A stretch of DNA of 60,834 bases from Aminobacter ciceronei. GTDB lineage: Bacteria > Pseudomonadota > Alphaproteobacteria > Rhizobiales > Rhizobiaceae. Positions 9,791-37,255 of the stretch are shown piece by piece (the first letter of the stretch is position 1; each line of letters starts with the position of its first letter). The translations under genes and the position numbers were made by a program. The DNA lies in the NCBI RefSeq assembly GCF_014138625.1, contig NZ_JACJHY010000036.1:1-60834 (forward strand), in the 5' to 3' direction. The notes under the pieces were generated by a model. The model ran no database searches. It was not told the DNA's origin and saw only the letters and a list, made by a program, of their open reading frames with translations.

Positions 9791-11359
9791 TTAGTCGCCG
9801 GCCATCTGCGTCAGCCAGTGGCGCGGCTTGTTGTCCGAGCGGAAGTCGACGCTCTTGACCTTGGCCTGCGTCGCCCAGGCGATCGGCTGCTGGTGCAGCG
9901 GAACGAGGATCGTGTCGTCCTTGGCGATCTTGAGGGCTGCTTCTTCCAGCGCCAGGCGCTTGGCGACATCAGGTTCCTGCACGGCCTGCGCAACCAGCTT
10001 GTCCAGCTCCGGATACGACCATCCGCCATAGTTCGAGACGCCGACCTTGTCGTTCTTGGTCGACAGCACCTGGGCCAAGATCGAGTAGGCGTCGAGCGTC
10101 GGCTCGTTGGCCCAGCTCAGGTTGAACATGTCGGCCTTGCCCTGCGTGCGCTTCGGCGATTGGACGGCGCGCGGCGCAATGTCGATCGAGACGTCGAAGC
10201 CGGCGCGCTTCAGCATGTTGGCGATGCCGGCGCAGAAGTCCTCCTCGTTGATGCTCTCGTCGTTGGAGCACATGTAGGTGAACTTCAGGCCTTCCTGGCC
10301 GGCTTCCTTGAGCAGCGCCTTGGCGCGTTCCGGATCGGCCTTGCTGTAGGTGTCGAGCGACTTGGCATAGCCTGCGATCTCAGGCGCGATCAGCGAGCCG
10401 GACGGCCGGGCGAGGCCGCGCATCACCTTGGCGTTGATCAGGTCGCGGTCGATCGCAGCCTCGACGGCCTGACGTACACGCACGTCGTTAAACGGGCTGG
10501 GACGACCGTCTTCCAGCTTCTCCTTGCGGTTGAAGCCGAGGAAGACCGTGCGGAACTCCTGCTTCTTCAGCACCGTCAGGCCGGGCGTGCTTTCGAGACG
10601 CGGCAAATCTTGGATCGGCGCGGAGTCGACGAGGTCGACTTCGCCCGACAGCAGTGCTGCGACACGGGTCGCCGGCGAGGCGATCGGCATGTATTCGATG
10701 CGGTCGAGATTGTGCTTCTTCTCATCCCACCAGAGATCGTTGACCAGCAGCACGGTCTTGCTGTCGGCGACGCGGCTTTCGAGCTTGAAGGGGCCCGTGC
10801 CGTTGGTGTTGTGGGTGGCGAAGCCTTCCGTCTTGGTGTCGACGGCGGTCGGCTTCTCCGTGTTGTTGTCCTTCAGCCACTTGCCGCTGAACATGAAGAT
10901 GTTCGTCATGTCGTTGAGGAACAGCGACGTCGGCGCCGAGACCTCGATGTCGACCGTGTGGTCATCGACCTTCTTGCTGCTGACGTAGAGCGGGATGTTG
11001 CCGCGCAGCGGCGAGGCCGGATCGGTGACGCGGTTGAGCGAGGCGATCACGTCGTCCGCGGTGAAGTCGGCACCGTTGTGGAACTTGACGCCCTGGCGCA
11101 GGGTGAAGCGCCAGACCTTGTTGTCGATCAGCTCCCACTTGGTCGCCAGCGCCGGCTCGATCTTGAAGTTGGCGTCGTAGCGAACCAGGCCCTCATAGAT
11201 GTGGTTGAGGAACGACAGGTTGAACGTCGACGCGATCGAATCAGGATCGAGCGAATAGATATCGGCGCGGCCGCCCCAACGCAGGGTTTCGGCACTGGCC
11301 GGTGCCGAGATGGCGATTGCTGCAACGGCACCGAGAATGAGTTTCTTAAAGCGAGACAT
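9791..11359 (-). CDS. ABC transporter substrate-binding protein, family 5 (stand-alone gene)
   Basis: A 522-aa SBP_bac_5 protein with a clear Sec signal (MSRFKKLILGAVAAIAISA, cleavage after ASA) and family landmarks (FTLRQGVKFHNGADFTADDV, NGTGPFKL). GGGAGG precedes the chosen start; the longer frame has no such site. No permease or ATPase gene adjoins it. Its N- and C-termini resemble the fossil at 21983-22126 (KLIL near the start; NKPRHWLTQ versus NKPHHRLTH at the end), and both have the same 22-bp operator. It may therefore serve the 15.3-21.9 kb transporter in trans. Confidence 0.9.
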   Translation of the reverse strand: MSRFKKLILGAVAAIAISAPASAETLRWGGRADIYSLDPDSIASTFNLSFLNHIYEGLVRYDANFKIEPALATKWELIDNKVWRFTLRQGVKFHNGADFTADDVIASLNRVTDPASPLRGNIPLYVSSKKVDDHTVDIEVSAPTSLFLNDMTNIFMFSGKWLKDNNTEKPTAVDTKTEGFATHNTNGTGPFKLESRVADSKTVLLVNDLWWDEKKHNLDRIEYMPIASPATRVAALLSGEVDLVDSAPIQDLPRLESTPGLTVLKKQEFRTVFLGFNRKEKLEDGRPSPFNDVRVRQAVEAAIDRDLINAKVMRGLARPSGSLIAPEIAGYAKSLDTYSKADPERAKALLKEAGQEGLKFTYMCSNDESINEEDFCAGIANMLKRAGFDVSIDIAPRAVQSPKRTQGKADMFNLSWANEPTLDAYSILAQVLSTKNDKVGVSNYGGWSYPELDKLVAQAVQEPDVAKRLALEEAALKIAKDDTILVPLHQQPIAWATQAKVKSVDFRSDNKPRHWLTQMAGD

Positions 11360-24883: not shown

Positions 24884-25315
24884 TCACTCGACCTGATGCC
24901 TGAGACCTGCCGCCTCGATCCCAGCAACGGCCACGAGTTCGTCATTGTCCGACGTGTCACCAGTGACGCCGACGGCGGCGAGGAGCTTGCCGGCCTGGTC
25001 GCGCACGAGCACGCCGCCCGGAACGGGCACGATCCTGCCGCCGGAGACGGCATTGAGCCCCTCGACAAAGTGCGGCCGCTCCCTCGCGGTCTGGTCGAGC
25101 CAGAGCGACCCCATGCCGACCGCCAGCGCACCATAGGCCTTGCCCGCGGCGATCTCGTAGCGCAGCAGCGAGGCACCGTCCTGTTTCTGGAAGGCCTTCA
25201 GATGCCCACCGGCGTCGAGCACCGCAATTGTCAGGGGCTTTATCTTCGCCTCGGCGCCCTTTTCGAAGGCTGCAGCGATGATGGTGTTGGCTATGGAAAG
25301 CGTCAGTTCAGTCAT
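24884..25315 (-). CDS. HbpS/GlcG-family (PduO C-terminal-like) protein
   Basis: A 143-aa protein of the GlcG/HbpS fold: LTIAVLDAGGHLKAFQKQDG, EIAAGKAYGALAVG and GGRIVPVPGGVLV, followed by AAVGVTGDTSDNDE. Members bind heme or cobalamin or are small accessory proteins in catabolic operons (for example beside glycolate or propanediol genes). The start MTELTL has GAGG upstream. It is the last gene of the FAH-SBP-VOC-permease-ATPase operon but sits behind a good terminator, so it should be expressed at lower or separate level. Confidence 0.83.
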   Translation of the reverse strand: MTELTLSIANTIIAAAFEKGAEAKIKPLTIAVLDAGGHLKAFQKQDGASLLRYEIAAGKAYGALAVGMGSLWLDQTARERPHFVEGLNAVSGGRIVPVPGGVLVRDQAGKLLAAVGVTGDTSDNDELVAVAGIEAAGLRHQVE

Positions 25316-25340
25316 GTGGTTTCCTCGGAAATTCTGGGTC

Positions 25341-25372
25341 AAAAAAAGCGGCCGCCAGCCCGTGGCAGCCGC
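25341..25372 (-). terminator. rho-independent terminator before the HbpS-like gene
   Basis: On the minus strand a GC-rich 9-10 bp stem (GCGGC..GCCA/TGGC..GCCGC, one mismatch, 5-base loop at 25348-25372) is followed directly by seven T residues. It lies between the ATPase stop and the HbpS-like start, so it acts as an end-of-operon or attenuating terminator. Confidence 0.75.
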
Positions 25373-25412
25373 GAGAGTGCGATCGAAATGCCGTCAGTGT
25401 CCGGCGAGGTGA

Positions 25413-26225
25413 CTACTTCGTCACGCCCATGATCTTGCCGAGATAGGCGACATATTCGCCGAACTGCGGCAGCGCGCGGGTGGCGGCGGCGTCGCGCGGA
25501 CGCGGCAGATCGATCACCACCTCTTCGATGATCTTGCCCGGCCGGTCGGCCATGACCAGCACGCGGTCGGACAAGAACACGGCCTCGGCAATGCTGTGGG
25601 TGATCAACATCACGGTCTTGCGGTGCTCCTGCCAGATGCGCAGCAGCTCGACATTGAGCTTGTCGCGGGTCAGCGCGTCGAGCGCGCCGAAGGGTTCGTC
25701 CATCAAGAGAATCGGCGGATCGAGCACCAGCGCCTGGCCGATCGAGGCGCGCTGGCGCATGCCGCCCGACAGCTGGTGCGGGTGGGCGTCGGCGAACTTT
25801 GAGAGCGACAAAACCTCCAGCACCTTGTCGACCGCGTGGTCGCGGGCTTGCGCCGGCATCTTTCGGATGCGGGCGCCGAGCTCGACATTCTTGCGCACGG
25901 TGAGCCAGGGCAGCATGTTGTTGGTCTGAAAGACCACGCCGATGTCAGGTCGCGGCGAGTGAATCACCTCGCCCCTGACAGTCGCCGAGCCACTCTCATA
26001 GGGGATCAGGCCGGCAATGATGCGCAGAAGCGTGCTCTTGCCGCAGCCACTCGGCCCGAGCACCGAGACGAATTCCTGGTTGCGGATGCCGAAATTGATG
26101 TCTTCGAGCGCCGCGACCTTGCCGAAGTGCTTGTTGAGCCCCTTGGCTTCGATGTGGTTGGCCAGAGGCTGTGCGGCCGGCTGCGCGCCACCCTTGTTCG
26201 CCTCGATGGTCGCCGTAGCCGACAT
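25413..26225 (-). CDS. NitT/TauT-type ABC transporter ATP-binding protein
   Basis: A 270-aa ATPase of the SsuB/TauB/NrtD group: Walker [11 protein letters not shown], the TauB-like FQTNNMLPWLTV Q-loop, LSGGMRQRA and [24 protein letters not shown] stands 4 bases before the chosen ATG; an ATG at 26252 overlaps the permease stop (ATGA) but has no comparable site. It energises the permease encoded just upstream. Confidence 0.93.
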   Translation of the reverse strand: MSATATIEANKGGAQPAAQPLANHIEAKGLNKHFGKVAALEDINFGIRNQEFVSVLGPSGCGKSTLLRIIAGLIPYESGSATVRGEVIHSPRPDIGVVFQTNNMLPWLTVRKNVELGARIRKMPAQARDHAVDKVLEVLSLSKFADAHPHQLSGGMRQRASIGQALVLDPPILLMDEPFGALDALTRDKLNVELLRIWQEHRKTVMLITHSIAEAVFLSDRVLVMADRPGKIIEEVVIDLPRPRDAAATRALPQFGEYVAYLGKIMGVTK

Positions 26226-26248
26226 GGTGTCCTCCCGAACTGCGATAT

Positions 26249-27013
26249 TCATACCTGGATACCCCGCCACCAGACCGACTTGGCCGCGCATTCAATGGCC
26301 GCATAGAGCACCAGCGAGATCAGCGTGATGACGATGATGCAGCCGAAGACGAGGTCGGTGCGCGACGAGGCAGTGCCCAGCATGATGAGGTTGCCCAGGC
26401 CGCGGTCGGAGCCGACGAGTTCGCCGATGATGGCGCCGATCATCGCCAGCGGCATCGCCACGCGACAGCCGTCGATGAAAGCCGGCAGCGCGCTTGGCAG
26501 GCGCAGCGTCGTGAAGGTCGTCCACGGGCCGGCATTGAGGGCGCGGAAATGCTCTTCCAGGTTCTTGGCCGTGCCGGCAAAGCCGCCCAGGGTGGCGACG
26601 ACGATCGGGAAGAAGGCGAACAGGAAGGCCATCGCCACCTTGGAGACGAAGCCGTAGCCGAACCAGACGATCATCAGCGGCGCCAAGGCGCTTTTCGGAG
26701 TCGTCTGCAGCGCCGTCACCAGCGGATAGATGGTGCGCTGGGCGAAAGGCGAGACATAAACGATCATGCCGATGATGATGCCGACGACGACGGCGGCGAT
26801 GAAGCCGATCAGCACTTCGGCCAGCGTGTACATGGAGTGCTCGAAGATCTGGTCGCGTGACTCCCAGATCGCCACCGCGATCGCCGAGATCGGCGGCAGG
26901 ATGTAGCTTTTCACTTCGAAATAGCGAACGCCGTATTCCCAGAAGAGCAGGAACGCTCCGAAAAACGAGACGACTTGCGCGTATGCGACAAGTCTTGGAC
27001 TTACGCCTGACAT
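26249..27013 (-). CDS. NitT/TauT-type ABC transporter permease
   Basis: A 254-aa BPD_transp_1 permease of the SsuC/TauC/ThiX type with five or six membrane helices, YILPPISAIAVAIWES near the N-terminus, TTPKSALAPLMIVWFGYG, and the EAA-loop segment TLRLPSALPAFIDGCRVAMP. GGAGGAG precedes the ATG. It pairs with the ATPase at 25413 and the binding protein at 27739, although a VOC gene separates it from the latter. Confidence 0.92.
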   Translation of the reverse strand: MSGVSPRLVAYAQVVSFFGAFLLFWEYGVRYFEVKSYILPPISAIAVAIWESRDQIFEHSMYTLAEVLIGFIAAVVVGIIIGMIVYVSPFAQRTIYPLVTALQTTPKSALAPLMIVWFGYGFVSKVAMAFLFAFFPIVVATLGGFAGTAKNLEEHFRALNAGPWTTFTTLRLPSALPAFIDGCRVAMPLAMIGAIIGELVGSDRGLGNLIMLGTASSRTDLVFGCIIVITLISLVLYAAIECAAKSVWWRGIQV

Positions 27014-27115
27014 ATTGGCTCCTCCTGATAGGCGTCCGGGGGGTGGGCCTCACAGGCAGCAGCCCCGACAAATCTGTGTGTCGCATCCGGTCTGTCCGGT
27101 GCGCTCTTTGAGCAA

Positions 27116-27138
27116 GGGCGCCAGCATGGCCGGCGCCC
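27116..27138 (-). terminator. hairpin between the VOC and permease genes
   Basis: GGGCGCC and GGCGCCC, 7-bp arms around 9 bases, follow the VOC stop. No T-run; likely a processing or stabilising structure. Confidence 0.4.
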
Positions 27139-27167
27139 CTCGTCTCGGTGGCTTGCAGGTCCTCGGC

Positions 27168-27710
27168 CTACTCGCCCAGCTTGTCCTTCACCACCTGGTG
27201 GGGCGGCGGGACAAGGAAGCGCTTGAAATGCCACTGGTCGAAGGCGTCGATGTTGCGCGCCCAGACCTGTGCGACATGCGGGTTGTCTTCGGTGACCTGG
27301 ATCATGTCGCAATAGATCTCGCAGTTGTTGCCGTCGGGATCCTTGAACACGAGGAAGCAGTTGGCGCCCGGGCCATGCTTGCCGATGCCGCGGACGATTT
27401 CCACGCCGCGCTCCTGCAGCATCTCGGCCGCTGCCTCCATGTCCTCGAGGCTGTCGACCAGGTAGGAGAAGTGCTCGAGGCCGGGCCTCGAATACTTCGG
27501 CAGGTCGTCGCGATCGGGCGAGTCAGCCGGAATTTGCGACAAGGCGAGGTCGTGATGGTCAGCGCCTGCACGCAGGAACACCATCTTGTCCTCGATCCAG
27601 TCCGAGACCTCGAGGCCGACGACATTGGTGTAGAAGTCGACGGACTTGTGGATGTCACGAACCATCAGGACCATGTGGCCCAGCTTCCTGACGTTGATCT
27701 TCTTCTTCAT
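27168..27710 (-). CDS. VOC-superfamily protein, extradiol-dioxygenase/glyoxalase-like
   Basis: A 180-aa vicinal-oxygen-chelate protein with two beta-alpha-beta-beta-beta modules. The metal triad expected for type I extradiol dioxygenases is visible: His12 (RKLGHMVLMV), His80 (GLEHFSYLV) and Glu131 (GNNCEIYCD). KDPDGNNCEIY is typical of ring-cleaving and lyase members. The start with GAGG upstream (MKKKINV) is preferred over an ATG three codons earlier. It sits inside the NitT/TauT transport operon, between binding protein and permease. Ring cleavage of a catechol-like compound is plausible; glyoxalase or fosfomycin-resistance-type roles fit the context less well. Confidence 0.82.
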   Translation of the reverse strand: MKKKINVRKLGHMVLMVRDIHKSVDFYTNVVGLEVSDWIEDKMVFLRAGADHHDLALSQIPADSPDRDDLPKYSRPGLEHFSYLVDSLEDMEAAAEMLQERGVEIVRGIGKHGPGANCFLVFKDPDGNNCEIYCDMIQVTEDNPHVAQVWARNIDAFDQWHFKRFLVPPPHQVVKDKLGE

Positions 27711-27738
27711 GTTCCTCATCCAGGAGTGAAGTCAGCCC

Positions 27739-28737
27739 TCAGCGGCTGATATTGCGGTAGAGGTCGTCGGTCTTGATGCTGTCGTCGACGACGAAAGCTT
27801 CACGCACGAAGCCCATGGTCTTTTCCATGCGGTCGGCACGGACGAAACCCAGCTCCTTGTTCTCGGCGTTCGGATCGCGGACAAGCGCGTTGATCTGCTT
27901 GATCTGCTCCAGCACGATGCTCTTTTCGAGCGTCGGATACTGCTTGACGATCAGATCGGCGGATTCATCCGGGTTCTGCGCGAGGAACTCATAGCCACGG
28001 TAGGAAGCGTCCAGGAACTTGTCGACGACCTCGGGCTTCTCGGCCAGCATCTGCTCGGTGGTGACGAAGCCGCTGCCATACATGTCGAGACCGAAGTCGC
28101 GATACTTGATCATGCCGATCTTCTTGCCACTCTCGCCGGCATTCTCTGTCAGGATCGGCAGGCTGGCGCCTTCCCAGCACTCGGCGAGATCGACCTTGCC
28201 TTCCAGGAAGGACGAGGTGATGACGGCCGGGTTCATGCGCAGCAGCTTGAGGTGATCCTTGGGCAGGCCATTGTCGACGAGCCAGCTCGGCACGATGTTC
28301 TGCACCGGCGATGTGGCGCCGCCGCCGACCGACTTGCCGGCGAAGTCGGCGAGCTTCTTTTCGCCCTCGCCGTCCTTGGTCAGGTAGCAGAGCGCGCCCG
28401 GCCACACCGTGTTGATCGAGCCGACGAAAACGGCCTTGCCGCCATTGGCGCGGTTGAGAATGACCGAGACAGGATCGCCATAGCCGATGTCGAACAGGCC
28501 CTGGTCGATCTCGTTGACGGTGCGCTGGCCGCCATAACCCTGGTAGACGGTGACGTCGAGGCCAGCCTCGTCATAAAAACCCTTGGCCTTGGCGACTAGG
28601 ATGCCACCGACGCTGCCTTGCGGCAGCCACGACATGTTGAATGCGACCTTCTCGGCCGCCGAGGCGGCGGCCGTCATGCTTGCAACGGCACCTGCCAGCG
28701 CGAGCCCGCGCAGTGCTTTCCCGAAACTCATTGCCAT
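27739..28737 (-). CDS. NMT1/THI5-like ABC transporter substrate-binding protein
   Basis: A 332-aa periplasmic protein with a Sec signal (LRGLALAGAVASMTAAASA) and the NMT1/THI5 pattern SWLPQGSVGGILVAKAKGFY followed by YDEAGLDVTVYQG, and a later IGYGDPVSV. The family binds small heteroaromatic or sulfonate/nitrogen compounds (pyrimidine precursors, riboflavin, taurine). AGGAGGACAG precedes the start. It is the second gene of the operon, after the FAH-family hydrolase. Confidence 0.9.
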   Translation of the reverse strand: MAMSFGKALRGLALAGAVASMTAAASAAEKVAFNMSWLPQGSVGGILVAKAKGFYDEAGLDVTVYQGYGGQRTVNEIDQGLFDIGYGDPVSVILNRANGGKAVFVGSINTVWPGALCYLTKDGEGEKKLADFAGKSVGGGATSPVQNIVPSWLVDNGLPKDHLKLLRMNPAVITSSFLEGKVDLAECWEGASLPILTENAGESGKKIGMIKYRDFGLDMYGSGFVTTEQMLAEKPEVVDKFLDASYRGYEFLAQNPDESADLIVKQYPTLEKSIVLEQIKQINALVRDPNAENKELGFVRADRMEKTMGFVREAFVVDDSIKTDDLYRNISR

Positions 28738-28778
28738 ACTGTCCTCCTCAGTGTTGGGCCTGGTTTTTTGGATGCTTC

Positions 28779-29717
28779 TTACCCGACCGGCATGGACCGG
28801 ATCGGATTTGTTATGGCGCCGACCTTCTCTACGGCAGCCGTGACGATGTCCCCGCAATTGAGGAACTCGCCGGTTCCCATGCCGACGCCGTCAGGCGTGC
28901 CGGTGGCGATCAGGTCGCCCGGCCGAAGCGTCAGGATCGACGACAGATAGGAGATCTGCTCGGCGACGGAAAAAATCATCGAACCGGTACTGTCGTCCTG
29001 CTTGCGCGTTCCGTTCACGTCCAGCGTCAGGCGCAGGCTCTGCGGATCGCCGATGCAGGCGGCCGGCACGAGCCACGGACCGAGCGGGGCGAACGTGTCG
29101 AAGCTCTTGCCCCGGAACCAGTCGAATTTGAAGGGGAAATCGGAGCGGCGCGTGAGATCGCGCGAGGTGATGTCGTTGATGACCGAATAGGCAGCGACAT
29201 GCTCGAGTGCCTTCTCGACCGGAATGTCGCGGCCGCCGATGCCAATGACTGCCGCCAGCTCGACCTCCCAATCGACCTTCTGCGCCCGCTCCGGCAGGAT
29301 CACCGCCGCATCGGGACCGATGACGCTCGAATCCGCCTTCATGAAGACATAGGGCTGGCTTTCCGACTTGGCGGCCAGCACCGTGCCCATCTCCTGGGCA
29401 TGCTCGACATAGTTGGACGCAGTGGCGAAAATGCGGATCGGGCGATAGGGCTCGCAAAGCTGCGTTCCCGTTCCCAGCGGCTCATATTTTGGACCTGCAG
29501 CGGCAACGTTCTCGGCGAGAGCCGCCAAAGCCGGCGCCACGTCCAGCCAGCGGTCGAGCATGCCCGCCACGCCGGCTGAAATCCACTTGTCCCAGGCCTG
29601 TGCGTCCTTACCCGTAAGGCGTGCCACCAGCGCGAGGTCATAGACGCCCTGCTCCGTCACCAATACGGGCCGAACTTCGTCCCTGATCACTCGTTGTCCT
29701 AGCGCGTGCCACACCAC
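28779..29717 (-). CDS. fumarylacetoacetate hydrolase (FAH) family protein
   Basis: A 312-aa FAH-fold protein: N-terminal 100-residue domain, then ATASNYVEHAQEM, the metal-binding VDWEVELAAVIG (Glu-x-Glu) with the Asp in VINDITSRDLT, and GDLIATGTPDGVGMG. The family hydrolyses or decarboxylates acylpyruvates and ring-fission products of aromatic catabolism. It starts at GTG with GGAAGGAG upstream and heads a six-gene operon, divergent from the GST-like gene, with an operator between them. Confidence 0.9.
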   Translation of the reverse strand: MVWHALGQRVIRDEVRPVLVTEQGVYDLALVARLTGKDAQAWDKWISAGVAGMLDRWLDVAPALAALAENVAAAGPKYEPLGTGTQLCEPYRPIRIFATASNYVEHAQEMGTVLAAKSESQPYVFMKADSSVIGPDAAVILPERAQKVDWEVELAAVIGIGGRDIPVEKALEHVAAYSVINDITSRDLTRRSDFPFKFDWFRGKSFDTFAPLGPWLVPAACIGDPQSLRLTLDVNGTRKQDDSTGSMIFSVAEQISYLSSILTLRPGDLIATGTPDGVGMGTGEFLNCGDIVTAAVEKVGAITNPIRSMPVG

Positions 29718-29751
29718 TGGCTGGCTCCTTCCTTGTTGCCTGCTATCGTTG

Positions 29752-29780
29752 TTGCATACATTTCATCATCTGTGTATGCA
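29752..29780. promoter_or_regulatory. operator region of the FAH/GST divergent promoters
   Basis: TGCATACA (29753-29760) and TGTATGCA (29773-29780) are perfect inverted half sites 12 bases apart. The right half is part of ATCTGTGTATGCA (29768-29780), which recurs in the promoters at 33.74 and 36.21 kb. The GntR regulator at 35358 is the likely binder. Confidence 0.6.
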
Positions 29781-29820
29781 TGTCAAGCATGAGGTGCGCA
29801 CGGAGAGCGAGTTTCTAACG

Positions 29821-30630
29821 ATGTCTGAAATCGAATTGTTCCATGAATGGGGTTCGGTTCAGTCCTTCAAGGTCCGCATGTGCCTGGCCGAGCTCGACCT
29901 TCCCTGGACCTCGCGCCGCATCGACCTGACGCGTTTCGACAATCTCTCCCCGGCCTATCTCACAGTGCACCCCAAAGGGCTGGTGCCGGCGCTACGCTGG
30001 AACGGCGAGGTCTTCGTCGAATCCTCCGACATCAACGAGCTGCTCGTCGACATTGCCGGCGGCAGGCTGCTGCCATCTTCGATAGAAGAACGCGCACGCG
30101 CGCGAAGCTGGGCTCGCTTCGAAGACGAGGTGGTGCACCCGGCCATCCGCCCGCCGACCTTCAATCTCATCCTCAAGGAGCGTGTGGCGAAAATCGCCCC
30201 TGCCACATTCGCCGAAATGATCTCGCGACATCCGCTGCCGGCACGACGCGACGCCTATCTGGCCGCGGCGCACGCGCCCTTCGATCACGCGGCCGTCGTC
30301 ACCTCGATCAGGACGTTCCGCGACGTGATGGCCAGGATGGAGCGAGCATTGGCTGAAAGACACTGGCTGGCAGCAGACAGCTTTTCGCTCGCCGACGTGG
30401 CCATGGCCGCCTTCGTCGACAGGCTCGACCGACTGGCCATGCCCGCCTTGCTCGCCGCCTTTCCCAAAACGTCCGACTGGGCGACGCGAATCCGCGCCCT
30501 CAAGTCATTCGCCGAGGCCCAGGGCCCGGACAACGCTCGCCCCGATCCACTCGTCAACACAGCTGCCGTGTCCACGCTGATCGCCGAGGCGCACGGGCAA
30601 GCTCCAACACTGGAAATGGAACGCTTCTGA
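29821..30630 (+). CDS. glutathione S-transferase-family protein
   Basis: A 269-aa GST-fold protein: thioredoxin-like N-terminal domain (FHEWGSVQSFKVRMCLAELD; PKGLVPALRW with the cis-Pro; FVESSDINELL with the Glu-Ser glutathione contact) and an all-helical C-terminal domain (HWLAADSFSLADVAMAAFVD). In ring-cleavage pathways such proteins act as maleylpyruvate or maleylacetoacetate isomerases or as dehalogenases/ether-cleaving enzymes. I chose the start MSEIEL; the frame is open further upstream through the operator, where translation is not expected. Coupled to the next gene (TGATG). Confidence 0.88.
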   Translation: MSEIELFHEWGSVQSFKVRMCLAELDLPWTSRRIDLTRFDNLSPAYLTVHPKGLVPALRWNGEVFVESSDINELLVDIAGGRLLPSSIEERARARSWARFEDEVVHPAIRPPTFNLILKERVAKIAPATFAEMISRHPLPARRDAYLAAAHAPFDHAAVVTSIRTFRDVMARMERALAERHWLAADSFSLADVAMAAFVDRLDRLAMPALLAAFPKTSDWATRIRALKSFAEAQGPDNARPDPLVNTAAVSTLIAEAHGQAPTLEMERF

Positions 30631-31241
30631 TGGATCACGCCATGAAGATCGACACACTGGACGACGGCAAGACCCTGCTCGACCGCCTGTTCTTCGACGC
30701 CCGCAGCCAGAATGGTTGGCTCGACCGGCCGGTCGATCTCGCGCTGCTCGAACGAATCCACGACATCGCCAGGATGGGGCCGACGAGCATGAACTGCTCG
30801 CCGCTGCGTATCGTCTACCTGGCGACCGATGCGGCACGCGACAAGCTGAAGGCGGCGCTGGCTGCGGGCAACGTCTCCAAGATCATGACCTGCCCGGTCG
30901 TCGCCATCTTCGCCACCGACTACGCTTTTGCCGAGAAGATGCCGTTTCTGTTCCCGCACACCGACGGCAAAGGCCATTTCGAGCGCAATCCGCATCTCGT
31001 CGACGACACAGCCTTCCGCAACGCCACGCTGCAGGCCGCCTATTACATGCTGGCGGCGCGTGCGCTCGGCCTCGACTGCGGGCCGATCTCCGGCTTCAAC
31101 CGTGCCGCCACCGACGAGATCTTCTTTGCCGGCACGGCCATTCGTTCAAACTTCATCTGCGGCATCGGCCATGGCGATCCGGCCAAGCTGTTTCCCCGCC
31201 ACCCGCGCCTGCCCTTCAACGAAGCCTGCACGGTGCTTTGA
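30630..31241 (+). CDS. nitroreductase-fold protein, RutE-like (malonic semialdehyde reductase type)
   Basis: A 203-aa flavoprotein-fold reductase resembling RutE: ARSQNGWLDRPVDLALLERI, GPTSMNCSPLRIVYL, and a C-terminal GHGDPAKLFPRHPRLPFNEA. RutE-type proteins reduce malonic semialdehyde to 3-hydroxypropionate at the end of pyrimidine degradation, using FMN and NAD(P)H. The rest of a rut operon is absent, so here it may reduce another short semialdehyde or an enal from ring cleavage. Confidence 0.88.
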   Translation: MDHAMKIDTLDDGKTLLDRLFFDARSQNGWLDRPVDLALLERIHDIARMGPTSMNCSPLRIVYLATDAARDKLKAALAAGNVSKIMTCPVVAIFATDYAFAEKMPFLFPHTDGKGHFERNPHLVDDTAFRNATLQAAYYMLAARALGLDCGPISGFNRAATDEIFFAGTAIRSNFICGIGHGDPAKLFPRHPRLPFNEACTVL

Positions 31242-31262
31242 TCTGCGCCTGAAAAGAAAATA

Positions 31263-31286
31263 GCCCCCGACGCAAGCGCCGGGGGC
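31263..31286 (-). terminator. rho-independent terminator between convergent operons
   Basis: GCCCCCG-a-CG - CAAG - CG-c-CGGGGGC. On the minus strand it is followed by TATTTTCTTTT, so it ends the hydrolase-DHDPS-RidA operon. It also lies just after the RutE-like stop on the plus strand. Confidence 0.75.
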
Positions 31287-31345
31287 AGGCTATGGGTGTG
31301 GTAACAGGCGGTCTGAAAAAGTCTTGAAACAGGTCTGCCTGAAAA

Positions 31346-31750
31346 TCAGTCCGGCCGGCGCGCCACGACCTTGAGCTCGACCACCATGTCCGGGTGCGGC
31401 AACTGGCGGACGCCGACGGTGGTGCGGGCCGGGCCGTCAGGCCCGAACCACTTGTTGTATTCGCAGTTCATGGCTGGATAGTAGGCCATGTCGGTGAGGA
31501 AGATCGTGACGTCGACCAGATCCGAGAGCCTGCCGTCGACCGCGCGCAACGTCTCGGTGATGTTGGTGACGATCGCCCGGAACTGCTCGGCCACGTCGTA
31601 GATTGCTTCGCCCGCCTGCCTGGAGACACCTGCAATTGTGCCGTCCTTCTGCCGGGCGCTGACGCCTGACAGGAACAGCAGGCCGCCCGCCTCACGCAGG
31701 AAAGGATAGTTGGCGAGCGGCTTCGGCCTGTCGGCTGCAGCAGTGCTCAC
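31346..31750 (-). CDS. RidA (YjgF/YER057c/UK114) family protein
   Basis: A 134-aa Rid-family protein: PKPLANYPFLREAGGLLFLS, KDGTIAGVSRQAGEA, VDVTIFLTDMAYYPAMN and TTVGVRQLPHPDMVVELKVVA with the substrate-binding Arg and Glu. Rid proteins hydrolyse enamine/imine intermediates; aromatic-pathway members are 2-aminomuconate deaminases. The GTG start overlaps the stop of the DHDPS-like gene (GTGA). It suggests that an imine or enamine arises in this pathway. Confidence 0.88.
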   Translation of the reverse strand: MSTAAADRPKPLANYPFLREAGGLLFLSGVSARQKDGTIAGVSRQAGEAIYDVAEQFRAIVTNITETLRAVDGRLSDLVDVTIFLTDMAYYPAMNCEYNKWFGPDGPARTTVGVRQLPHPDMVVELKVVARRPD

Positions 31751-32661
31751 GCCGCCTTCTCCAGCGCCCAGGGCGAGAAGCCGGCCTGGTCGACCGCAGC
31801 GAAGAACGTCTGCTCGGCCTGCGCGTCGAGTTCGACCAGCGGCGCGCGCACGGTGCGCCAATCGTTGGAGCCGAGTTCGCGCGCGATCAGTGACTTCATC
31901 GCCTGGATCATCGGGAACTGCTGGAACAGCGTGCGCACGGTGACAGCCTGGGCGAATGCGTCGGTCACGCCCATCTTTGGCGTGTTCACCACCGCCTCGA
32001 CCATGCCCTTGGCATTGACGTTGGCGGTCGCCGAGATGCAGCCGACCGACCCCCTGGCCATCGTCTCGCCGAGCAGGATCTCGGAAGCCGGGAAGACCTT
32101 GAAGCCGTCGCCGATGTCGAGATAACGCGCCAGGTTTTCGCGGTCGCCCGAGCTGTCCTTGATGCCGACGACGTTGGGATAGCGGCGACGCAGGCCCTCG
32201 ACCAGTTCGACGGTAACAGGCACGCCGGTGAATTGCGGGATGTGATAGAGCACCACCTGCAGCTTGTCCGAACCGACAGCTTCGATCAGGCGGCCATAGT
32301 GGCGGATCAGCCCTTCGGTCGTTGCCGGCTTGAAGAAAAACGGCGGCAGCACCAGCACGGCGGGCGCACCCGCGTCGACCGCCGCGCGCGTCAGCTCAAC
32401 GGTCTCCCCGAGCGAATTGTTGCCGGTGCCGGGCATCAGCGCCGAGGCAGGGATGCCAGCAGCAACCACCTCATCGAGCAGGCGACGCTTTTCCGAAATC
32501 GACAGCGAAGCTGCCTCGCTGTTGGTGCCGAAGATCGCAAGGCCGGCACCCTGCTCGACGACCCAGCGGCAATGGCTGAGGAAATGCTGCGAATTGACTG
32601 TTAGGTCCGGATTGAACGGCGTCAGAACCGGGGCGTAGACGGAGAGAAGCTCCTGGGTCAT
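31747..32661 (-). CDS. dihydrodipicolinate-synthase-family (class I lyase) protein
   Basis: A 304-aa TIM-barrel aldolase of the DapA/NAL family: IFGTNSEAASLS at the 2-oxoacid pocket, VVLYHIPQFTG with the catalytic Tyr and VVGIKDSSGD with the Schiff-base Lys. Family members include hydratase-aldolases of aromatic catabolism, 2-keto-3-deoxy-sugar-acid aldolases and lysine biosynthesis enzymes; GTNSEA instead of GTTGE argues against true DapA. Second gene of the hydrolase-aldolase-RidA operon; starts 5 bases after the hydrolase stop. Confidence 0.88.
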   Translation of the reverse strand: MTQELLSVYAPVLTPFNPDLTVNSQHFLSHCRWVVEQGAGLAIFGTNSEAASLSISEKRRLLDEVVAAGIPASALMPGTGNNSLGETVELTRAAVDAGAPAVLVLPPFFFKPATTEGLIRHYGRLIEAVGSDKLQVVLYHIPQFTGVPVTVELVEGLRRRYPNVVGIKDSSGDRENLARYLDIGDGFKVFPASEILLGETMARGSVGCISATANVNAKGMVEAVVNTPKMGVTDAFAQAVTVRTLFQQFPMIQAMKSLIARELGSNDWRTVRAPLVELDAQAEQTFFAAVDQAGFSPWALEKAA

Positions 32662-32666
32662 GGGTC

Positions 32667-33623
32667 TCACTTTCGCTTTTGACAGGACAATCCGCAGGGA
32701 AAGAGACCGCATTCGTCGATGGCGAAGCGCATGATCTCGTGTCCCAGTTCCTCTTCGTGCGTATCGAAATGCGCGACGATGGATGTGTGGTTGTGGCGGC
32801 TCAGCTGGACGAAGCGCGGCGCCTTGCCGGTGCGCATCGCATGCCGCTGGACGAACTCGGCGCCATAGGCGTCGATGTAGCGGTTCTCGAACTCGGCAAC
32901 GGCGACCATCACCGGCAGCGCACTGGTTCCCGCATGAATGACCGGCGACAGCGCGTCGTAGGCCGCCTCGTCGTCGCCGAAATACTGGCGGACGTTGTTG
33001 GCATTGGGATTGGTGGGCAGGCTGTCGGCCCTGAGCCGCGCGCTGATCAGCACCGCCCCTCTGATGTCGGGGCTCGGAAGCCGCCCGACATTGGGGTCGT
33101 GGAGGTAACCGGCGACATGGCAGCCGCCGGCGGAATGGCCAACAAGCAGGATCGCGCGCGGATTGCCGCCGAAACGCTCGATGTTTGCGGCGATCCAGTC
33201 GATCGCCGCCGCCACGTCGCGCGCGCCTTCGGGGTACTGCGCGCCGGGCGCCAGCCGGTACTCGACATTGACGCCGACGAGGCCCTGGCGGCTGAACCAG
33301 CGCAGCACATTGTCGTAGATCAGGCCGTCCACGCTTTTCGAGCCGCGCGTAAACGCGCCGCCATGGACAAAGACGACGACCGGCCGGCCGCGCCCGGACG
33401 CGCAACGGCTGCTGCTTTCGAAGACGTCGAGGCGATGGGCGGGATCGGCGCCATAGGCCAGGTCGCGGTGGACGACGATGCCGTCATTGGCGGCCTTTTC
33501 CTGGTGATGGTCACGATAGACGTCGAGCACCACCTTACGGCTCGCGCCGAGATCGTCGTTCCAGACCCTGCCTATGGCATCCAGTCGCGCCCGCTCATCA
33601 GGCGAAAGTCCGGCAAATCGCAT
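32667..33623 (-). CDS. alpha/beta hydrolase, HSL/kynurenine-formamidase-like
   Basis: A 318-aa hydrolase: oxyanion motif VFVHGGAFTRG, nucleophile elbow LLVGHSAGGCHVAGY, catalytic His in LSRHNHTSIVAHF. The arrangement resembles arylformamidases and N-formyl or carbamoyl ester/amide hydrolases rather than lipases. No signal peptide. It heads the operon with DHDPS-like and RidA genes and diverges from the VOC gene at 33836, with tandem operator-like repeats between. Confidence 0.86.
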   Translation of the reverse strand: MRFAGLSPDERARLDAIGRVWNDDLGASRKVVLDVYRDHHQEKAANDGIVVHRDLAYGADPAHRLDVFESSSRCASGRGRPVVVFVHGGAFTRGSKSVDGLIYDNVLRWFSRQGLVGVNVEYRLAPGAQYPEGARDVAAAIDWIAANIERFGGNPRAILLVGHSAGGCHVAGYLHDPNVGRLPSPDIRGAVLISARLRADSLPTNPNANNVRQYFGDDEAAYDALSPVIHAGTSALPVMVAVAEFENRYIDAYGAEFVQRHAMRTGKAPRFVQLSRHNHTSIVAHFDTHEEELGHEIMRFAIDECGLFPCGLSCQKRK

Positions 33624-33737
33624 TTTCGCTGTCCCTGCTCCTCGCAGAGGGGGCCCTCAAGCAGGCGTACCCACTCCGGTGTACCCACCCCCCTCATTTG
33701 TCGCTGGATAGCAGTCAATTTCACACTTGACAACATA

Positions 33738-33772
33738 TTTGCATACACAGATTAGTATTTGAATACACAGAT
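33738..33772. promoter_or_regulatory. tandem operator-like repeats in the hydrolase/VOC divergent promoter
   Basis: TTTGCATACACAGAT (33738-33752) and TTTGAATACACAGAT (33758-33772) are direct repeats 20 bases apart with one mismatch. The first contains the reverse complement of ATCTGTGTATGCA found at 29768-29780. Two turns of helix separate the copies, suiting cooperative binding of a dimeric regulator. Confidence 0.65.
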
Positions 33773-33835
33773 GAAGAGAGTCTGTGTTGCGGGGCGGCTG
33801 CCGCCTCGCCGTCAAACCCTGTGAAAGGAAAACCT

Positions 33836-34240
33836 ATGGCCAAGTTGCGCCATCTCGCCATCGCCGTGTCCGACCCGGAAGCGGCCGCCCAGTTCTTCGA
33901 GAAGGCCTTCGGCATGACCCGCGCCGGTCAGGCGATGCGCGGCGTTTACATGTCCGACGGCGTCATGAACGTCGCCCTTTTGAACTTCGGCGAAGAGCCG
34001 GTTCCGGGCTTCGAGACCGAGAAGGACTACAACGGCATCATCCACTTCGGCATGTGGGTGGATTCGGTCGAGGAGACCGACGAACTGGTGAAGGCTGCCG
34101 GCGGTTCGTACATGAACGGCCGCAAGGAATCGAACCCCAACGTCTTTTACGAAGTGAAGTACAAGACCCCCGAAGGCATCGTTTTCGACGTCACCGAGAA
34201 CGGCTGGAAGGGCGCGGTCAAGAACGTCAAGTCAGCCTGA
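33836..34240 (+). CDS. VOC-superfamily (glyoxalase-like) protein, small
   Basis: A 134-aa single-unit VOC protein: LRHLAIAVSDPEAAAQFFEK with a candidate metal His, NGIIHFGMWVDSVEETDELV with a second His, and TPEGIVFDVTENGW near the end. Likely dimeric. AAAGGAAAA precedes the ATG. It begins the plus-strand operon VOC - dehydrogenase - GntR. Reaction unknown; isomerase, lyase or hydratase roles are possible. Confidence 0.83.
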   Translation: MAKLRHLAIAVSDPEAAAQFFEKAFGMTRAGQAMRGVYMSDGVMNVALLNFGEEPVPGFETEKDYNGIIHFGMWVDSVEETDELVKAAGGSYMNGRKESNPNVFYEVKYKTPEGIVFDVTENGWKGAVKNVKSA

Positions 34241-34340
34241 CCTGGCCCGAACCAATGCCGAGGCAACTAGCACCCCCGGCATCGGGCCATGTCACGGCCG
34301 CCGGCTTGGGCGGCGGCAACAACGGAATGGAGCAATCGAG

Positions 34341-35276
34341 ATGGCCAAGTCCAAGATCGCGGTGACGATCCCCGTCTCCGACACCTGCCTGTCGCGACTG
34401 TCCCAATCCTACGACGTGATCACGCTGCCCGCAGGACTGGGCAGCGGATCACCGGAGATCGATTTCAGCGGCGTCTGGGCGGTGCTCACCAACGGCAGCA
34501 CCGGCATGTCCGACGGCGAAATGGATAGGCTGCCGGACCTAAAGCTGGTTTCCGCCTATGGCGCGGGCTACGAGAATGTCGACGTCGAGGCCGCAAGGCG
34601 CCGCGGCATCCACGTCACCCACGCGCCGAACACCAACACGGAGACTGTCGCTGACCATGCGCTCGCGTTGATGCTGGGGATCTCGCGCGACATCTGCCGG
34701 CGCGACCGCCGCCTGCGAGAGGGTGCCTGGGGCGCGATCCGCTCGGCCCGGCCGACGCTGTCGGGCGCAACCCTCGGCATCATCGGCCTCGGCAACATCG
34801 GCCAAGGCGTGGCAAGGCGCGGCAAAGCCTTCGGCATGCGCGTCGCCTACACCACCCGCAATCCAGTAACCGATGTCGACTGGCAGCACGTGCCCGACCC
34901 GATCATGCTTGCATCGATGAGTGATTTCCTCGTCATCGCCTGCCCCGGCGGGCCGTCAACGCGACATCTCGTCGACCGCCGCATGCTCGCGGCACTCGGG
35001 CCGGACGGGTTCCTGGTCAATGTCTCGCGCGGCATGGTCGTCGACACAGCGGCACTGGTCGAAGCCCTCCGTGAAAGCCGAATTGCCGGCGCCGGCCTCG
35101 ACGTCTTCGAAGGCGAGCCTGAGCTGCCCGCCGGCCTCGCCGACCTCGACAATGCCGTGCTGACACCGCACATGGCCGGACGCTCACCGGCGGCGGAAAA
35201 CGCACAGATCGACGTTTTTCTCCACAACCTCGCCGCGCATCGCAACGGCGGTATACTCAAAGCCCAGCTTGCATAA
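34341..35276 (+). CDS. D-2-hydroxyacid dehydrogenase (NAD(P)-dependent)
   Basis: A 311-aa member of the D-isomer-specific 2-hydroxyacid dehydrogenase family: Rossmann motif GIIGLGNIGQGVARRG, and the catalytic Arg in VNVSRGMVVD, Glu in DVFEGEPELP and His in LTPHMAGRSP. It resembles glyoxylate/hydroxypyruvate reductases and would interconvert a 2-oxoacid produced by the aldolase with its D-2-hydroxyacid. It lies 100 bases after the VOC gene. Confidence 0.9.
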   Translation: MAKSKIAVTIPVSDTCLSRLSQSYDVITLPAGLGSGSPEIDFSGVWAVLTNGSTGMSDGEMDRLPDLKLVSAYGAGYENVDVEAARRRGIHVTHAPNTNTETVADHALALMLGISRDICRRDRRLREGAWGAIRSARPTLSGATLGIIGLGNIGQGVARRGKAFGMRVAYTTRNPVTDVDWQHVPDPIMLASMSDFLVIACPGGPSTRHLVDRRMLAALGPDGFLVNVSRGMVVDTAALVEALRESRIAGAGLDVFEGEPELPAGLADLDNAVLTPHMAGRSPAAENAQIDVFLHNLAAHRNGGILKAQLA

Positions 35277-35357
35277 ATCTCGGGCTGTCACTAAATCGAT
35301 TTGGGATTTGCCTCGCGGCAGATCGCCATTTGCCGTGAGAACCGGAAAGCCGAACGC

Positions 35358-36008
35358 ATGACCACCATCGCCTCGCAGATCTACCAGGCCCTCGCCGAGG
35401 AAATCGCCAAGGGCGTGATGGTTCCTGGCCAGAAGCTCGAAGAAAAGGTCATCGCCGAGAAGTTCGGCGTCTCCAGAACGCCGGTGCGTGACGCCCTGCG
35501 CGAACTCGGCGCCCGCGGCCTGATCGAGATGAATCCGCGCCGCGGCGGCGTCGTCGCCCGCATCGACACCGAACAGATGGCCGACATGCTGGAGGCCGAA
35601 TGCGAGATCGAGGCCCTGTGCGCCCGCCTCGCCGCCCAGCGCATGAGCGCGCTCGAGCGCGAGCAGCTTTATGAACTGCACCGCCAATACGCGGCCTGCG
35701 CCGCCGAAAAGGACATAGAGGGCTGCCGCGACATCAACCGCAAGTTCCATGACGCCATCTGCCGTGGCGCCCACAGCGTCACCATCACCGCGATGGCGGT
35801 CGACCTGCGCGTGCGCCTCGCCCCTTTCCGCCAGCATCAGGCCGGTCCCGCCGACATCCGACTGCAGCAGTCGCTCGACGAGCACCAGAAGGTCGTCGAC
35901 GCGATCCGCGCCAATGACGGTCCGGCTGCCTTCGCCGCCCTTTACCAGCACAACGCCCGCCTCAGCGCCGGTGTGATGAGCCGCTTCGCCGCCGAAGCGG
36001 CCAAGTAG
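35358..36008 (+). CDS. GntR-family (FCD) transcriptional regulator
   Basis: A 216-aa regulator with winged HTH (FGVSRTPVRDALRELGARGL, IEMNPRRGGVV) and FCD domain (DINRKFHDAICRGA, DEHQKVVDAI). The start MTTIASQIYQ follows 81 bases after the dehydrogenase gene. It is the only regulator between the three promoters that carry the ATCTGTG-type motif, so it is the presumed controller of the 24.9-37.3 kb cluster. Confidence 0.88.
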   Translation: MTTIASQIYQALAEEIAKGVMVPGQKLEEKVIAEKFGVSRTPVRDALRELGARGLIEMNPRRGGVVARIDTEQMADMLEAECEIEALCARLAAQRMSALEREQLYELHRQYAACAAEKDIEGCRDINRKFHDAICRGAHSVTITAMAVDLRVRLAPFRQHQAGPADIRLQQSLDEHQKVVDAIRANDGPAAFAALYQHNARLSAGVMSRFAAEAAK

Positions 36009-36310
36009 CCCAAGGCATCATCCCGACACCGAAGTTGACCTTGCCTGGCCACCGGCCGGGCCACTTGCGCTCGCCTTGGGCTGACCGAGCAACACCCTGC
36101 ATTCCCGCCAACTCACGCCTCGCCGCCCGCGCAGCCGCACGCTTTTGCGGACGCAGGTATACAAGAATGCGGATGTGCATATCAAATCATTTGCATTCTC
36201 AAACTCATCTGTGCATACATGATAATCGCATTGCATACTACAAGGTACCTGTAGCCGCCGGCACATCGAGCAACGGCGATATTCAAGACCCGAATTCTGG
36301 AGGAGAAATC
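36009..36310. other. 302-bp intergenic region with regulatory sites
   Basis: It has no supported gene. It contains TATACAA at 36159-36165, TTGCATTCT at 36191-36199, the operator-like site at 36207-36219 and TTGCATAC at 36231-36238. It looks like a multi-site promoter for the binding-protein gene downstream. Confidence 0.5.
36207..36219. promoter_or_regulatory. operator-like site of the cluster regulon
   Basis: ATCTGTGCATACA matches ATCTGTGTATGCA (29768-29780) at 11 of 13 positions; the flanks CATCTGTG...CATG also agree. It lies about 90 bases before the ribose-type binding-protein gene. Confidence 0.55.
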
Positions 36311-37255
36311 ATGGGCAAGAATGCACGGTATTTGACTTTGGCTCTGGCGATGGCGGCAACAGGCATGCTGTCGGCACCGGCCATGGCGGCCGAGAAGACG
36401 ATCGGCGTCACGGTCCCCTATTTCGGCTCGCCGTTCTGGAAGGCCGGGCTCTACGGCGTCGAGACCGCCGGAAAGGAAAAGGGCTACACGGTGCTGAAGG
36501 GCGACGCCAAGGACAAGGCCGAGGTCCAGATCGAGCAGATCCGCAGCTACATCGACAAGAAGGTCGACGCCATCATCATCGGCGCCGCCGACGCCGCAGC
36601 CGTCGGCCCGGCGGTCGAGGAAGCCATCGACAAGGGCATCCCTGTTATCGCACTGTCGGTGCCGCCGAAGTCCGACCGCCTGACCTCATTCGTCGGCGCC
36701 GACAATATCGGCATGGGCCGCCTGCAGGGCATCTGCCTCGGCCGCGCCATCGGCGGCAAGGGTGAGGTCGGCCTGTTTGCGGGACCCGACGAAATCTGGG
36801 CCAAGCTGCGCGTCACCGGCTTCAAGAACACCATGGAAGCCGACTTCCCCGACATCAAGATCGTCGCCGAGAAGGCCGGCGGCACCAAGGATGCGGGCGT
36901 CGCCGCCGTCGAATGGGCCAAGGCTCATCCCGACATGCACGGCATCTTCACCGCCGCCGACACCATGGCCGTCGAGTCGATCAACCAGCTCGGCGCGTCC
37001 GTAGAGAAGATCAGGGTTTCGACCTCGAATCTCAACGACGACGCTCGCGCTGCCCTCGAAAACGGCAAGCTGACCTGCGCCTCGCTGCAGCCGGCGGTGG
37101 CCATGGGCCGCGACGCCGCCCGCGAGGCGATCGCCGCGATCGAAGGCGGCAAGGTGCTCGGCCGCATCGAAGCGCCGGCCCTGCTCGTCACCAAGGAGAA
37201 GGTCGCCGGCTACGACTTCTCCAAGATCATAGCCCCGGCCGACTACCAGCCGTAA
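36311..37255 (+). CDS. ribose-type periplasmic binding protein (PBP family 1), without a cognate transporter
   Basis: A 314-aa periplasmic protein with a Sec signal (LTLALAMAATGMLSAPAMA) and the RbsB-like fold: TIGVTVPYFGSPFWKAGLYG, QIRSYIDKKVDAIIIGAAD, GKGEVGLFAGPDE and HPDMHGIFTAADTMA. GGAGGAG precedes the start. No BPD_transp_2 permease or double ATPase of the matching class is in the window except the dead fragment at 7.9-8.2 kb. It could feed a distant transporter or act as a chemosensory binding protein. Confidence 0.88.
   Translation: MGKNARYLTLALAMAATGMLSAPAMAAEKTIGVTVPYFGSPFWKAGLYGVETAGKEKGYTVLKGDAKDKAEVQIEQIRSYIDKKVDAIIIGAADAAAVGPAVEEAIDKGIPVIALSVPPKSDRLTSFVGADNIGMGRLQGICLGRAIGGKGEVGLFAGPDEIWAKLRVTGFKNTMEADFPDIKIVAEKAGGTKDAGVAAVEWAKAHPDMHGIFTAADTMAVESINQLGASVEKIRVSTSNLNDDARAALENGKLTCASLQPAVAMGRDAAREAIAAIEGGKVLGRIEAPALLVTKEKVAGYDFSKIIAPADYQP

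Follow-up and report, generated by a model that had tools for sequence, protein, structure and literature searches.

The window, i.e. the whole stretch of 60,834 nucleotides analysed here, belongs to an Aminobacter-like soil bacterium and harbors a catabolic module organized in five predicted transcription units (Table 1). It comprises an FAH-family hydrolase, two VOC proteins, an alpha/beta hydrolase, a DHDPS-family protein, a RidA, a RutE-like reductase and a 2-hydroxyacid dehydrogenase. A sequence-only reading had tied about 12 kb and four units into one regulon; a single regulon is still what the sequence suggests, with a span of ~12.4 kb (24884-37255) and five units instead of four.

Table 1. 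Predicted transcription units, promoter elements and operator cores of the catabolic cluster (positions in the window)
Feature	Positions	Strand	Remarks
Unit 1 (FAH promoter): FAH-family hydrolase, NMT1-type substrate-binding protein, VOC1, ABC permease, ABC ATPase, HbpS-like	24884..29717	-	predicted to be a single unit
Core FAH-1, TGCATACA	29753..29760	+	present in 8/8 aligned clusters; overlaps putative -10/+1 of FAH promoter
Core FAH-2, TGTATGCA	29773..29780	+	exactly 20 bp from FAH-1; between putative -35 and -10 of FAH promoter
Putative -35 TTGACA, FAH promoter	29781..29786	-	TGTCAAG block invariant in 8 clusters
Unit 2: glutathione S-transferase-like (GST) and malonic-semialdehyde-reductase-family proteins	29821..31241	+	predicted control
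Unit 3: alpha/beta hydrolase, dihydrodipicolinate-synthase-family and RidA-family proteins	31346..33623	-	predicted control
Putative -35 TTGACA, VOC2 promoter	33727..33732	+	CACACTTGACAAC invariant in 8 clusters
Core VOC2-1, TGCATACA	33740..33747	+	between putative -35 and -10
Core VOC2-2, TGAATACA	33760..33767	+	exactly 20 bp from VOC2-1; TGCATACA in 7 relatives
Unit 4: VOC2, D-2-hydroxyacid dehydrogenase, FCD-GntR	33836..36008	+	predicted operon, predicted autoregulation
GntR-family regulator with FCD domain, proposed repressor	35358..36008	+	PF00392 and PF07729
Third SBP2 core, weaker, TGCATTCT	36192..36199	+	lies 20 bp upstream of SBP2-1; TTTGCATTC invariant in 8 clusters
Core SBP2-1 (central), TGCATACA	36212..36219	+	
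Core SBP2-2, TGCATACT	36232..36239	+	exactly 20 bp downstream of SBP2-1
Unit 5: ribose/TorT-like periplasmic binding protein	36311..37255	+	no permease or ATPase of the same type adjoining

Among the enzymes, the RutE-like reductase alone passes the curated NCBIfam cut-offs, the product of 30630-31241 matching the RutE equivalog NF003768 with 256.3 bits (cut-off 152). The RutC model TIGR03610 gave 43.6 bits, below its cut-off of 169.1, and the module was therefore not classed as the Rut pyrimidine pathway. PDB relatives of the enzymes are generic and provided no pathway name, and literature searches with the enzyme names found no paper on this catabolic module among those listed. The type of control proposed below is ordinary; the pathway under control is unstudied. 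The regulator of unit 4 carries an N-terminal winged helix (PF00392, 66.8 bits against a cut-off of 27) and a C-terminal FCD domain (PF07729, 80.4 bits against 24.3), and its orthologues in seven syntenic clusters are 84-99% identical.

A 13-bp motif had been proposed as the operator of this cluster, and all four sites are where they had been placed: two exact copies at 29768-29780 (+) and 33740-33752 (-), a 12/13 match at 33760-33772 (-) and an 11/13 match at 36207-36219 (+). Four matches in the window compare with a mean of 0.64 and a maximum of 3 in 100 shuffles (0/100 reach 4). While these sites stand, the 13-mer is not the best unit, which is rather an 8-bp near-palindrome, TGYATRCA, in pairs or a triple at 20 bp. 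The 5' ATCTG portion of the 13-mer is not conserved at every promoter of the relatives; the TGYATRCA core and its 20-bp partner are. The 20-bp spacing, noted earlier at one place, holds there and is present at all three promoters (FAH, VOC2 and SBP2), with cores that the sequence-only reading had not listed: at 29753 (TGCATACA), at 36232 (TGCATACT) and, more weakly, at 36192 (TGCATTCT). Compared with a GT-Nx-AC palindrome, the best cores (TGTATGCA/TGCATACA) are perfect in one half, GTAT or ATAC, and deviate by one base in the other. At the permease promoter, where a weaker match had been reported at ~27072, the sequence is present in the window, but A. carboxidus has a changed version and the other 5 aligned relatives lack it, and the match was dropped.

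The placement of the sites in the 6,774,758-base genome is near-exclusive. The exact 13-mer occurs twice, both times in this cluster; at most one mismatch gives 4 places (3 in this cluster), and at most two give 32, against 9 for the reversed pattern. We then scanned the genome with a weight matrix, as had been suggested, using a sequence-only model trained on four Ensifer/Sinorhizobium-type genomes (12 sites in all), with no Aminobacter site included. It gave 3 matches at E<=10 (150/535 first-look candidates scored), which are the three promoters, with 28.2, 19.3 and 17.7 bits. Weaker extra pairs are present at C3:125532 (1 mismatch), C1:259398 and C22:111379 (2 mismatches), and at <=3 mismatches the pair pattern meets a dense background (49 places against 26 for the reversed pattern). 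Extra pairs in Aminobacter-type genomes, one behind an aminotransferase-like gene, one near a vsr-like gene (both names being by-eye readings) and C3:125532, were inspected and showed no link to this regulator.

Conservation was examined in eight rhizobial clusters, the window's included, with a GntR orthologue of 84-100%; they were gathered by searching with this GntR, whose presence is thus by construction, and represent two related lineages rather than independent draws. The TGCATACA core is kept at each of the three promoters in all eight clusters. With TGCATACA as anchor, +20 ranks top among the offsets for a second core at each of the three promoters, with mean matches of 7.88, 6.88 and 6.62 of 8 over a background of ~2.5. 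Invariant columns amount to 42/48 in the cores, 14/36 in the 12-bp spacers and 110/407 in the other aligned intergenic positions. The counterpart of FAH-2 is TGTATTCA or TGTATTCT in 6/7 relatives. Moreover, the orientation of the second core varies between promoters and between species, which would be expected of a dimer site and not of a direct-repeat reader. In a held-out Ensifer plasmid cluster the model recovers all three promoters (28.4, 25.6 and 14.5 bits).

Co-occurrence of sites and orthologue had been proposed as a check, and pairs are indeed found at all three promoters in 8/8 clusters with an 84-100% orthologue. Under stricter filters, matches of >=17.7 bits are present in 4/61 genomes: three with a close orthologue (three sites each), and G035 once. 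The G035 match lies inside a Sel1-repeat gene and was judged to be due to chance. The L052 genome, whose GntR is 69-71% identical with a practically identical recognition helix, has no TGYATRCA pair at <=1 mismatch, and a pair-like match at 2 mismatches occurs in 12/58 relatives without a close orthologue. Additional pairs are present in A. carboxidus, at C5:43274 (1 mismatch) and C2:36166 (0), and in A. anthyllidis, at C23:635329 (1). Sites corresponding to the C5 and C2 types also occur in a genome of the same genus (G002) without a close orthologue, suggesting that another protein may read similar DNA.

The module was also traced by a search led by VOC2, the sole comparison free of GntR-based cluster selection. 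Plasmid loci were opened in Ensifer PDNC004, Diaphorobacter, B. arboris and C. metallidurans CH34 (VOC2 identity at least 45%), and in all four a relative of this GntR, at 42-86% identity, is encoded within ~10 kb. Near a VOC2 relative at 38% in Terrarubrum (L138) there is a LysR, and no GntR gene is annotated; VOC2 also has a distant relative in G174. In B. arboris (GntR 48%), triples of GTATAC-type cores at 20-bp steps are present in the FAH-GntR gap and in the hydrolase-VOC2 gap. The perfect palindrome TGTATACA was seen solely at the loci of B. arboris and C. metallidurans. The Ensifer/Sinorhizobium-based model missed the loci of Burkholderia, Cupriavidus and Diaphorobacter.

These data bear on whether the sites are a chance likeness, or inherited sequence without function. 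The relatives do share descent, and the 49 against 26 places of the pair pattern at <=3 mismatches would fit such an origin. However, the model matches at E<=10 among the scored candidates are restricted to the three promoters, the held-out cluster is recovered, the +20 phasing and the core columns are maintained, and the B. arboris cores have diverged yet are equally phased, leaving this origin scarcely credible.

We consider it highly probable, on the sequence evidence, that the FCD-GntR of unit 4 has this repeated element as its operator; its dimers would bind side by side and repress the five units. This gene had been described as the only regulator gene among the sites, which holds for the interval between them but not for the window, where a second FCD-GntR gene lies at 610-1317. 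That a different GntR paralogue, such as this one, reads the sites would be in line with the 27 matches of the local GntR in the genome at E<=0.001, with the FCD and GntR domains of the 610-1317 product and with the elements TTGCATACAA and CGTATACAAT beside its gene; the local GntR, moreover, is in the clusters by construction of the search. On the other hand, none of the matches to the 610-1317 protein exceeds 50% identity across seven searched genomes, although the sites are retained in six of these, and the VOC2-led look again finds a relative of the local GntR near the module in 4/4 opened places at >=45% identity. Reading by a paralogue appears very unlikely. The 610-1317 protein itself was rejected as site reader, being 28% identical to the local GntR and having a best match of 50% in the cluster genomes.

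No promoter passes a strict sigma-70 consensus scan, and the promoter positions in Table 1 are predicted from conserved CTTGACA blocks. As these blocks adjoin the cores, and as TTGCAT and CATACA lie 17 bp apart at the SBP2 promoter like a possible -35/-10, the conserved blocks could be promoter hexamers and not regulator sites. This seems highly improbable, since the distance from core to CTTGACA differs between FAH and VOC2, the cores occur at 20 bp in either orientation, and at E<=10, among the scored candidates, the model matches nowhere else in the genome.

If the sites are operators of the local GntR, the spacing of 20 bp start-to-start, about two helical turns, would place two dimers adjacent on one face of the DNA. 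At FAH and VOC2, one core would lie inside the putative -35/-10 and its partner on or immediately beyond -10/+1, positions from which a bound regulator would obstruct RNA polymerase. The regulator would be released by a metabolite of the pathway, probably a carboxylate since these are the usual effectors of FCD domains, and uptake and catabolism would be switched on from the five units, the regulator's own operon included. The divergent GST and hydrolase units would be likewise controlled. The same regulator might instead activate, or act both ways depending on its ligand: the pair of the hydrolase unit is >100 bp upstream of its start, a possible activator position, and FCD activators such as CitO are described. 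However, in 8/8 clusters one core at FAH and VOC2 is just behind CTTGACA within the predicted -35/-10 spacer, a repressing position as for Atu1419, and a role in activation appears unlikely.

The direct repeats read by NanR are closely packed. As proposed here, NanR of E. coli places several GntR-type dimers side by side, three on a (GGTATA)3 repeat, but it is a direct-repeat reader whereas the present cores are near-palindromes about two turns apart (PMC8012715). Atu1419 of Agrobacterium fabrum, an FCD/VanR-group GntR repressor of hydroxycinnamate catabolism with the operator ATGTATACAT (PMC7797058), is likewise an alphaproteobacterial FCD-GntR acting in a catabolic region on more than one local promoter, and the site type is similar. 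Its 10-bp palindromes, as described there, overlap the -10 or lie between -35 and -10, which is comparable to the predicted promoters here; a tetramer bridges them over a separation of 190 bp (or 109 bp where the partner is degenerate), whereas the present cores follow each other at 20 bp and in most cases differ by one base from a perfect palindrome (TGCATACA). AlkR of Pseudomonas aeruginosa, another repressor of the FCD/VanR group, acts on a catabolic gene whose -10 region is covered by a palindrome, but is reported with one main palindrome, ATTGTCAGACAAT, plus two weak extra sites (PMC12042122). Finally, FadR-subfamily divergons have double sites at constant distance (29 with a regulator gene), the two sites between the divergent genes being taken to act together, and a GT/AC palindrome (Suvorova et al. 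2015, PMC4494728); the divergon passages of that paper mention neither the present motif nor an exact 20-bp phase at three promoters.

The module thereby gains a candidate regulator, operator and gene list, and its substrate becomes findable: any compound able to dislodge the regulator from 28-bp probe DNA, or to induce a reporter carrying this pair, should be the pathway's substrate or one of its intermediates. With its constant 20-bp phase, the array is also a simple system in which to examine whether FCD-GntR dimers bind side by side. More tentatively, a small FCD-GntR group of rhizobia and Burkholderiales may use two to three slightly asymmetric near-palindromes at exact 20-bp phase, bound by cooperative adjacent dimers or a tetramer, to control this undescribed catabolic module. 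In Cupriavidus metallidurans, the module sits amid genes of the kynurenine/3-hydroxyanthranilate pathway.

The sequence-only reading had tied a 13-bp operator motif at four sites in three promoters of the catabolic cluster to one regulon of the local FCD-type GntR regulator, and all four sites were found at their coordinates. The exact 13-mer is confined to this cluster in the 6.77-Mb genome; with at most one mismatch it occurs at four places, three of them in the cluster, and with at most two at 32 places, versus nine when the pattern is read backwards. Between the genes there are more sites than had been recorded, seen as near-palindromic TGYATRCA-type cores upstream of the FAH-family hydrolase (FAH), VOC2 and the periplasmic binding protein SBP2 (table). 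Exact TGYATRCA is present five times in the window (1338, 29753, 29773, 33740, 36212), and among the 34 8-mers with at least 7/8 matches, pairs at spacings of 9-60 are 20 bp apart three times, all at the three cluster promoters, the other spacings (23, 45 and 56) being represented by one pair each.

Seven further clusters were obtained with the regulator as query, so that finding a local GntR there carries no weight on its own. The regulator orthologues are 99% identical in A. carboxidus, 85% in A. anthyllidis, 86% on a plasmid of Ensifer sp. PDNC004 and 84% in four Ensifer/Sinorhizobium-type genomes (two Ensifer, a Sinorhizobium and a "Rhizobiales bacterium"). These rhizobial clusters have a common ancestry and do not count as independent. 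From the ABC permease to SBP2 all eight share one gene order, bar the GST gene, which was not found in two (L047 and L051), and among the relatives a TauE-family gene 3' of SBP2 was found in the two Aminobacter ones only. TGCATACA, which served as anchor, is present at all 24 promoters (three per cluster), and in all three promoter sets a second core fits best at +20 from it. Invariant columns amount to 42 of 48 in the cores, 14 of 36 in the 12-bp spacers and 110 of 407 in the other aligned intergenic positions, the SBP2 alignment being restricted to the 150-175 bp nearest the gene. The orientation of the second core varies by promoter and species (TGCATACA, TGTATGCA, TGAATGCA), which would fit a near-symmetric dimer site. 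SBP2 (36311-37255), a ribose/TorT-like protein with no same-kind permease or ATPase adjoining, shares the proposed operator and keeps its position throughout the eight clusters; it is perhaps a sensor or helper.

Features of the proposed operator system (model matches: window's genome, E<=10, 150 of 535 first-look candidates scored)
Feature	Position	Strand	Detail
Cores, FAH promoter	29753, 29773		20 bp start-to-start
Cores, VOC2 promoter	33740, 33760		20 bp start-to-start
Cores, SBP2 promoter	36192, 36212, 36232		20-bp steps
Putative VOC2 promoter	TTGACA 33727-33732, GATTAG at 33750	+	from conservation
Putative FAH promoter	TTGACA 29786-29781, AAATGT 17 bp on	-	from conservation
Model match	33733-33769		28.2 bits
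Model match	36206-36238		19.3 bits
Model match	29750-29785		17.7 bits
GTATAC-type triple cores, B. arboris	L134 11770-11817, 14690-14737		exact 20-bp steps, two intergenic regions

A sequence-only model was trained on 12 sites from the four Ensifer/Sinorhizobium-type genomes and on no Aminobacter site. The proposed concentration of sites was borne out in the window's genome, where all three matches fall at the three promoters (table), and on the held-out PDNC004 plasmid the model recovers all three (28.4, 25.6 and 14.5 bits). Under stricter filters, with 104 candidates scored in each genome having so many, 16 of 61 genomes were matched at E<=1. The three close-orthologue genomes, with three sites each, reached 17.7 bits or better, as did a single site in genome G035, the next-best score being 14.6 bits; strong sites track the close orthologue, as had been anticipated, with G035 as sole exception. 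The G035 match (19.1 bits) falls within a Sel1-repeat gene. The pattern TGYATRCA-N12-TGYATRCA, scanned in seven genomes at no more than one mismatch, occurs at two places in each Ensifer/Sinorhizobium-type genome, all in the cluster, at four in A. anthyllidis and at five in A. carboxidus, three of them in the cluster in either case, and nowhere in that of L052 (Pseudoxanthobacter MAG record); read backwards, it matched in none of the seven.

Among the extra pairs outside the cluster in Aminobacter-type genomes, two kinds have counterparts in G002, a genome of the same genus without a close GntR orthologue. One TGCATAA...TTGTATGCA pair lies behind an aminotransferase-like gene (L035 1501-1528), with counterparts in the same-genus genomes G001, G002 and G007. 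At two mismatches, pair-like matches appear in 12 further orthologue-less genomes versus four for the backwards-read pattern. L052 harbors a 69-71% GntR homologue with a nearly identical recognition helix, and no other cluster gene was found in its 15-kb locus. The TTGTGCACAA and TCGTGCACGA palindromes upstream of this lone homologue (9855-9875) may represent a different candidate operator despite the near-identical helix; the helix alone therefore does not settle which DNA is read.

The regulator carries GntR and FCD domains, both over Pfam cut-offs. Its most likely mode is repression, in which the bound protein would block the polymerase. The promoter positions rest on conservation because a strict consensus scan of the region found none; in both the putative FAH and the putative VOC2 promoter the spacer contains one core, and the second falls at -10/+1 or beyond. 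The FCD/VanR-group repressor Atu1419 is reported to work likewise, its palindrome ATGTATACAT overlapping the -10 or sitting between -35 and -10 (PMC7797058). AlkR, another repressor of the FCD/VanR group, has its main palindrome over the -10 (PMC12042122), and paired sites at constant distance have been described in 29 FadR-subfamily divergons with a regulator gene (PMC4494728). Within the open-licence literature, no paper was found on the Aminobacter GntR/FAH cluster, on the module enzymes with a GntR or on TGCATACA with a GntR, and no Aminobacter GntR operator was among the matches listed. The system offers a ready handle on the catabolic pathway.

VOC2 as query matched nine of 72,556 plasmid records and, at E<=1e-25, two of 397 genomes sampled evenly across the order, the window's own included. 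Five of the plasmid neighbourhoods were opened, and a GntR relative (42-86%) lies within about 10 kb in PDNC004, Diaphorobacter, Burkholderia arboris and Cupriavidus metallidurans CH34; none is annotated in the stretch examined of Terrarubrum (VOC2 38%). The model gave no match at E<=5 in L052 or in loci L134 (B. arboris), L135 (CH34) and L136. B. arboris (GntR 48%) has ten cluster genes together and a RidA-like gene about 7 kb away, with CGTATACA, TGTATTCA and CGTATACT at 20-bp steps in the FAH-GntR region and GGTATATA, TGTATACA and AGTATACC at 20-bp steps in the hydrolase-VOC2 region, where an overlapping core at -18 ties with that at -20. CH34 (GntR 51%) has one pair between VOC2 and the regulator, TGTATACA with a poor TGTGTTCA, and relatives of FAH, VOC1, hydrolase, DHDPS, RidA and reductase (L135 ~11608-33189). 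Genes for kynureninase and 3-hydroxyanthranilate 3,4-dioxygenase flank this module on one side, and those for 2-hydroxymuconic semialdehyde dehydrogenase, acetaldehyde dehydrogenase and 4-hydroxy-2-oxovalerate aldolase on the other; this setting between kynureninase/3-hydroxyanthranilate and lower meta-cleavage genes gives a hint of the module substrate. In Diaphorobacter sp. HDW4B the module comes with a 42% GntR, TGGTATACCA sites and a binding protein of the tripartite-tricarboxylate type, and a kynureninase gene lies about 5 kb past the module.

Finally, a second FCD-domain GntR gene in the window (610-1317, minus strand) is divergent from a binding-protein-dependent transporter, and the core-related TTGCATACAA and CGTATACAAT elements near it (1337-1346, 1464-1473, 1490-1499) have a spacing other than 20 bp.
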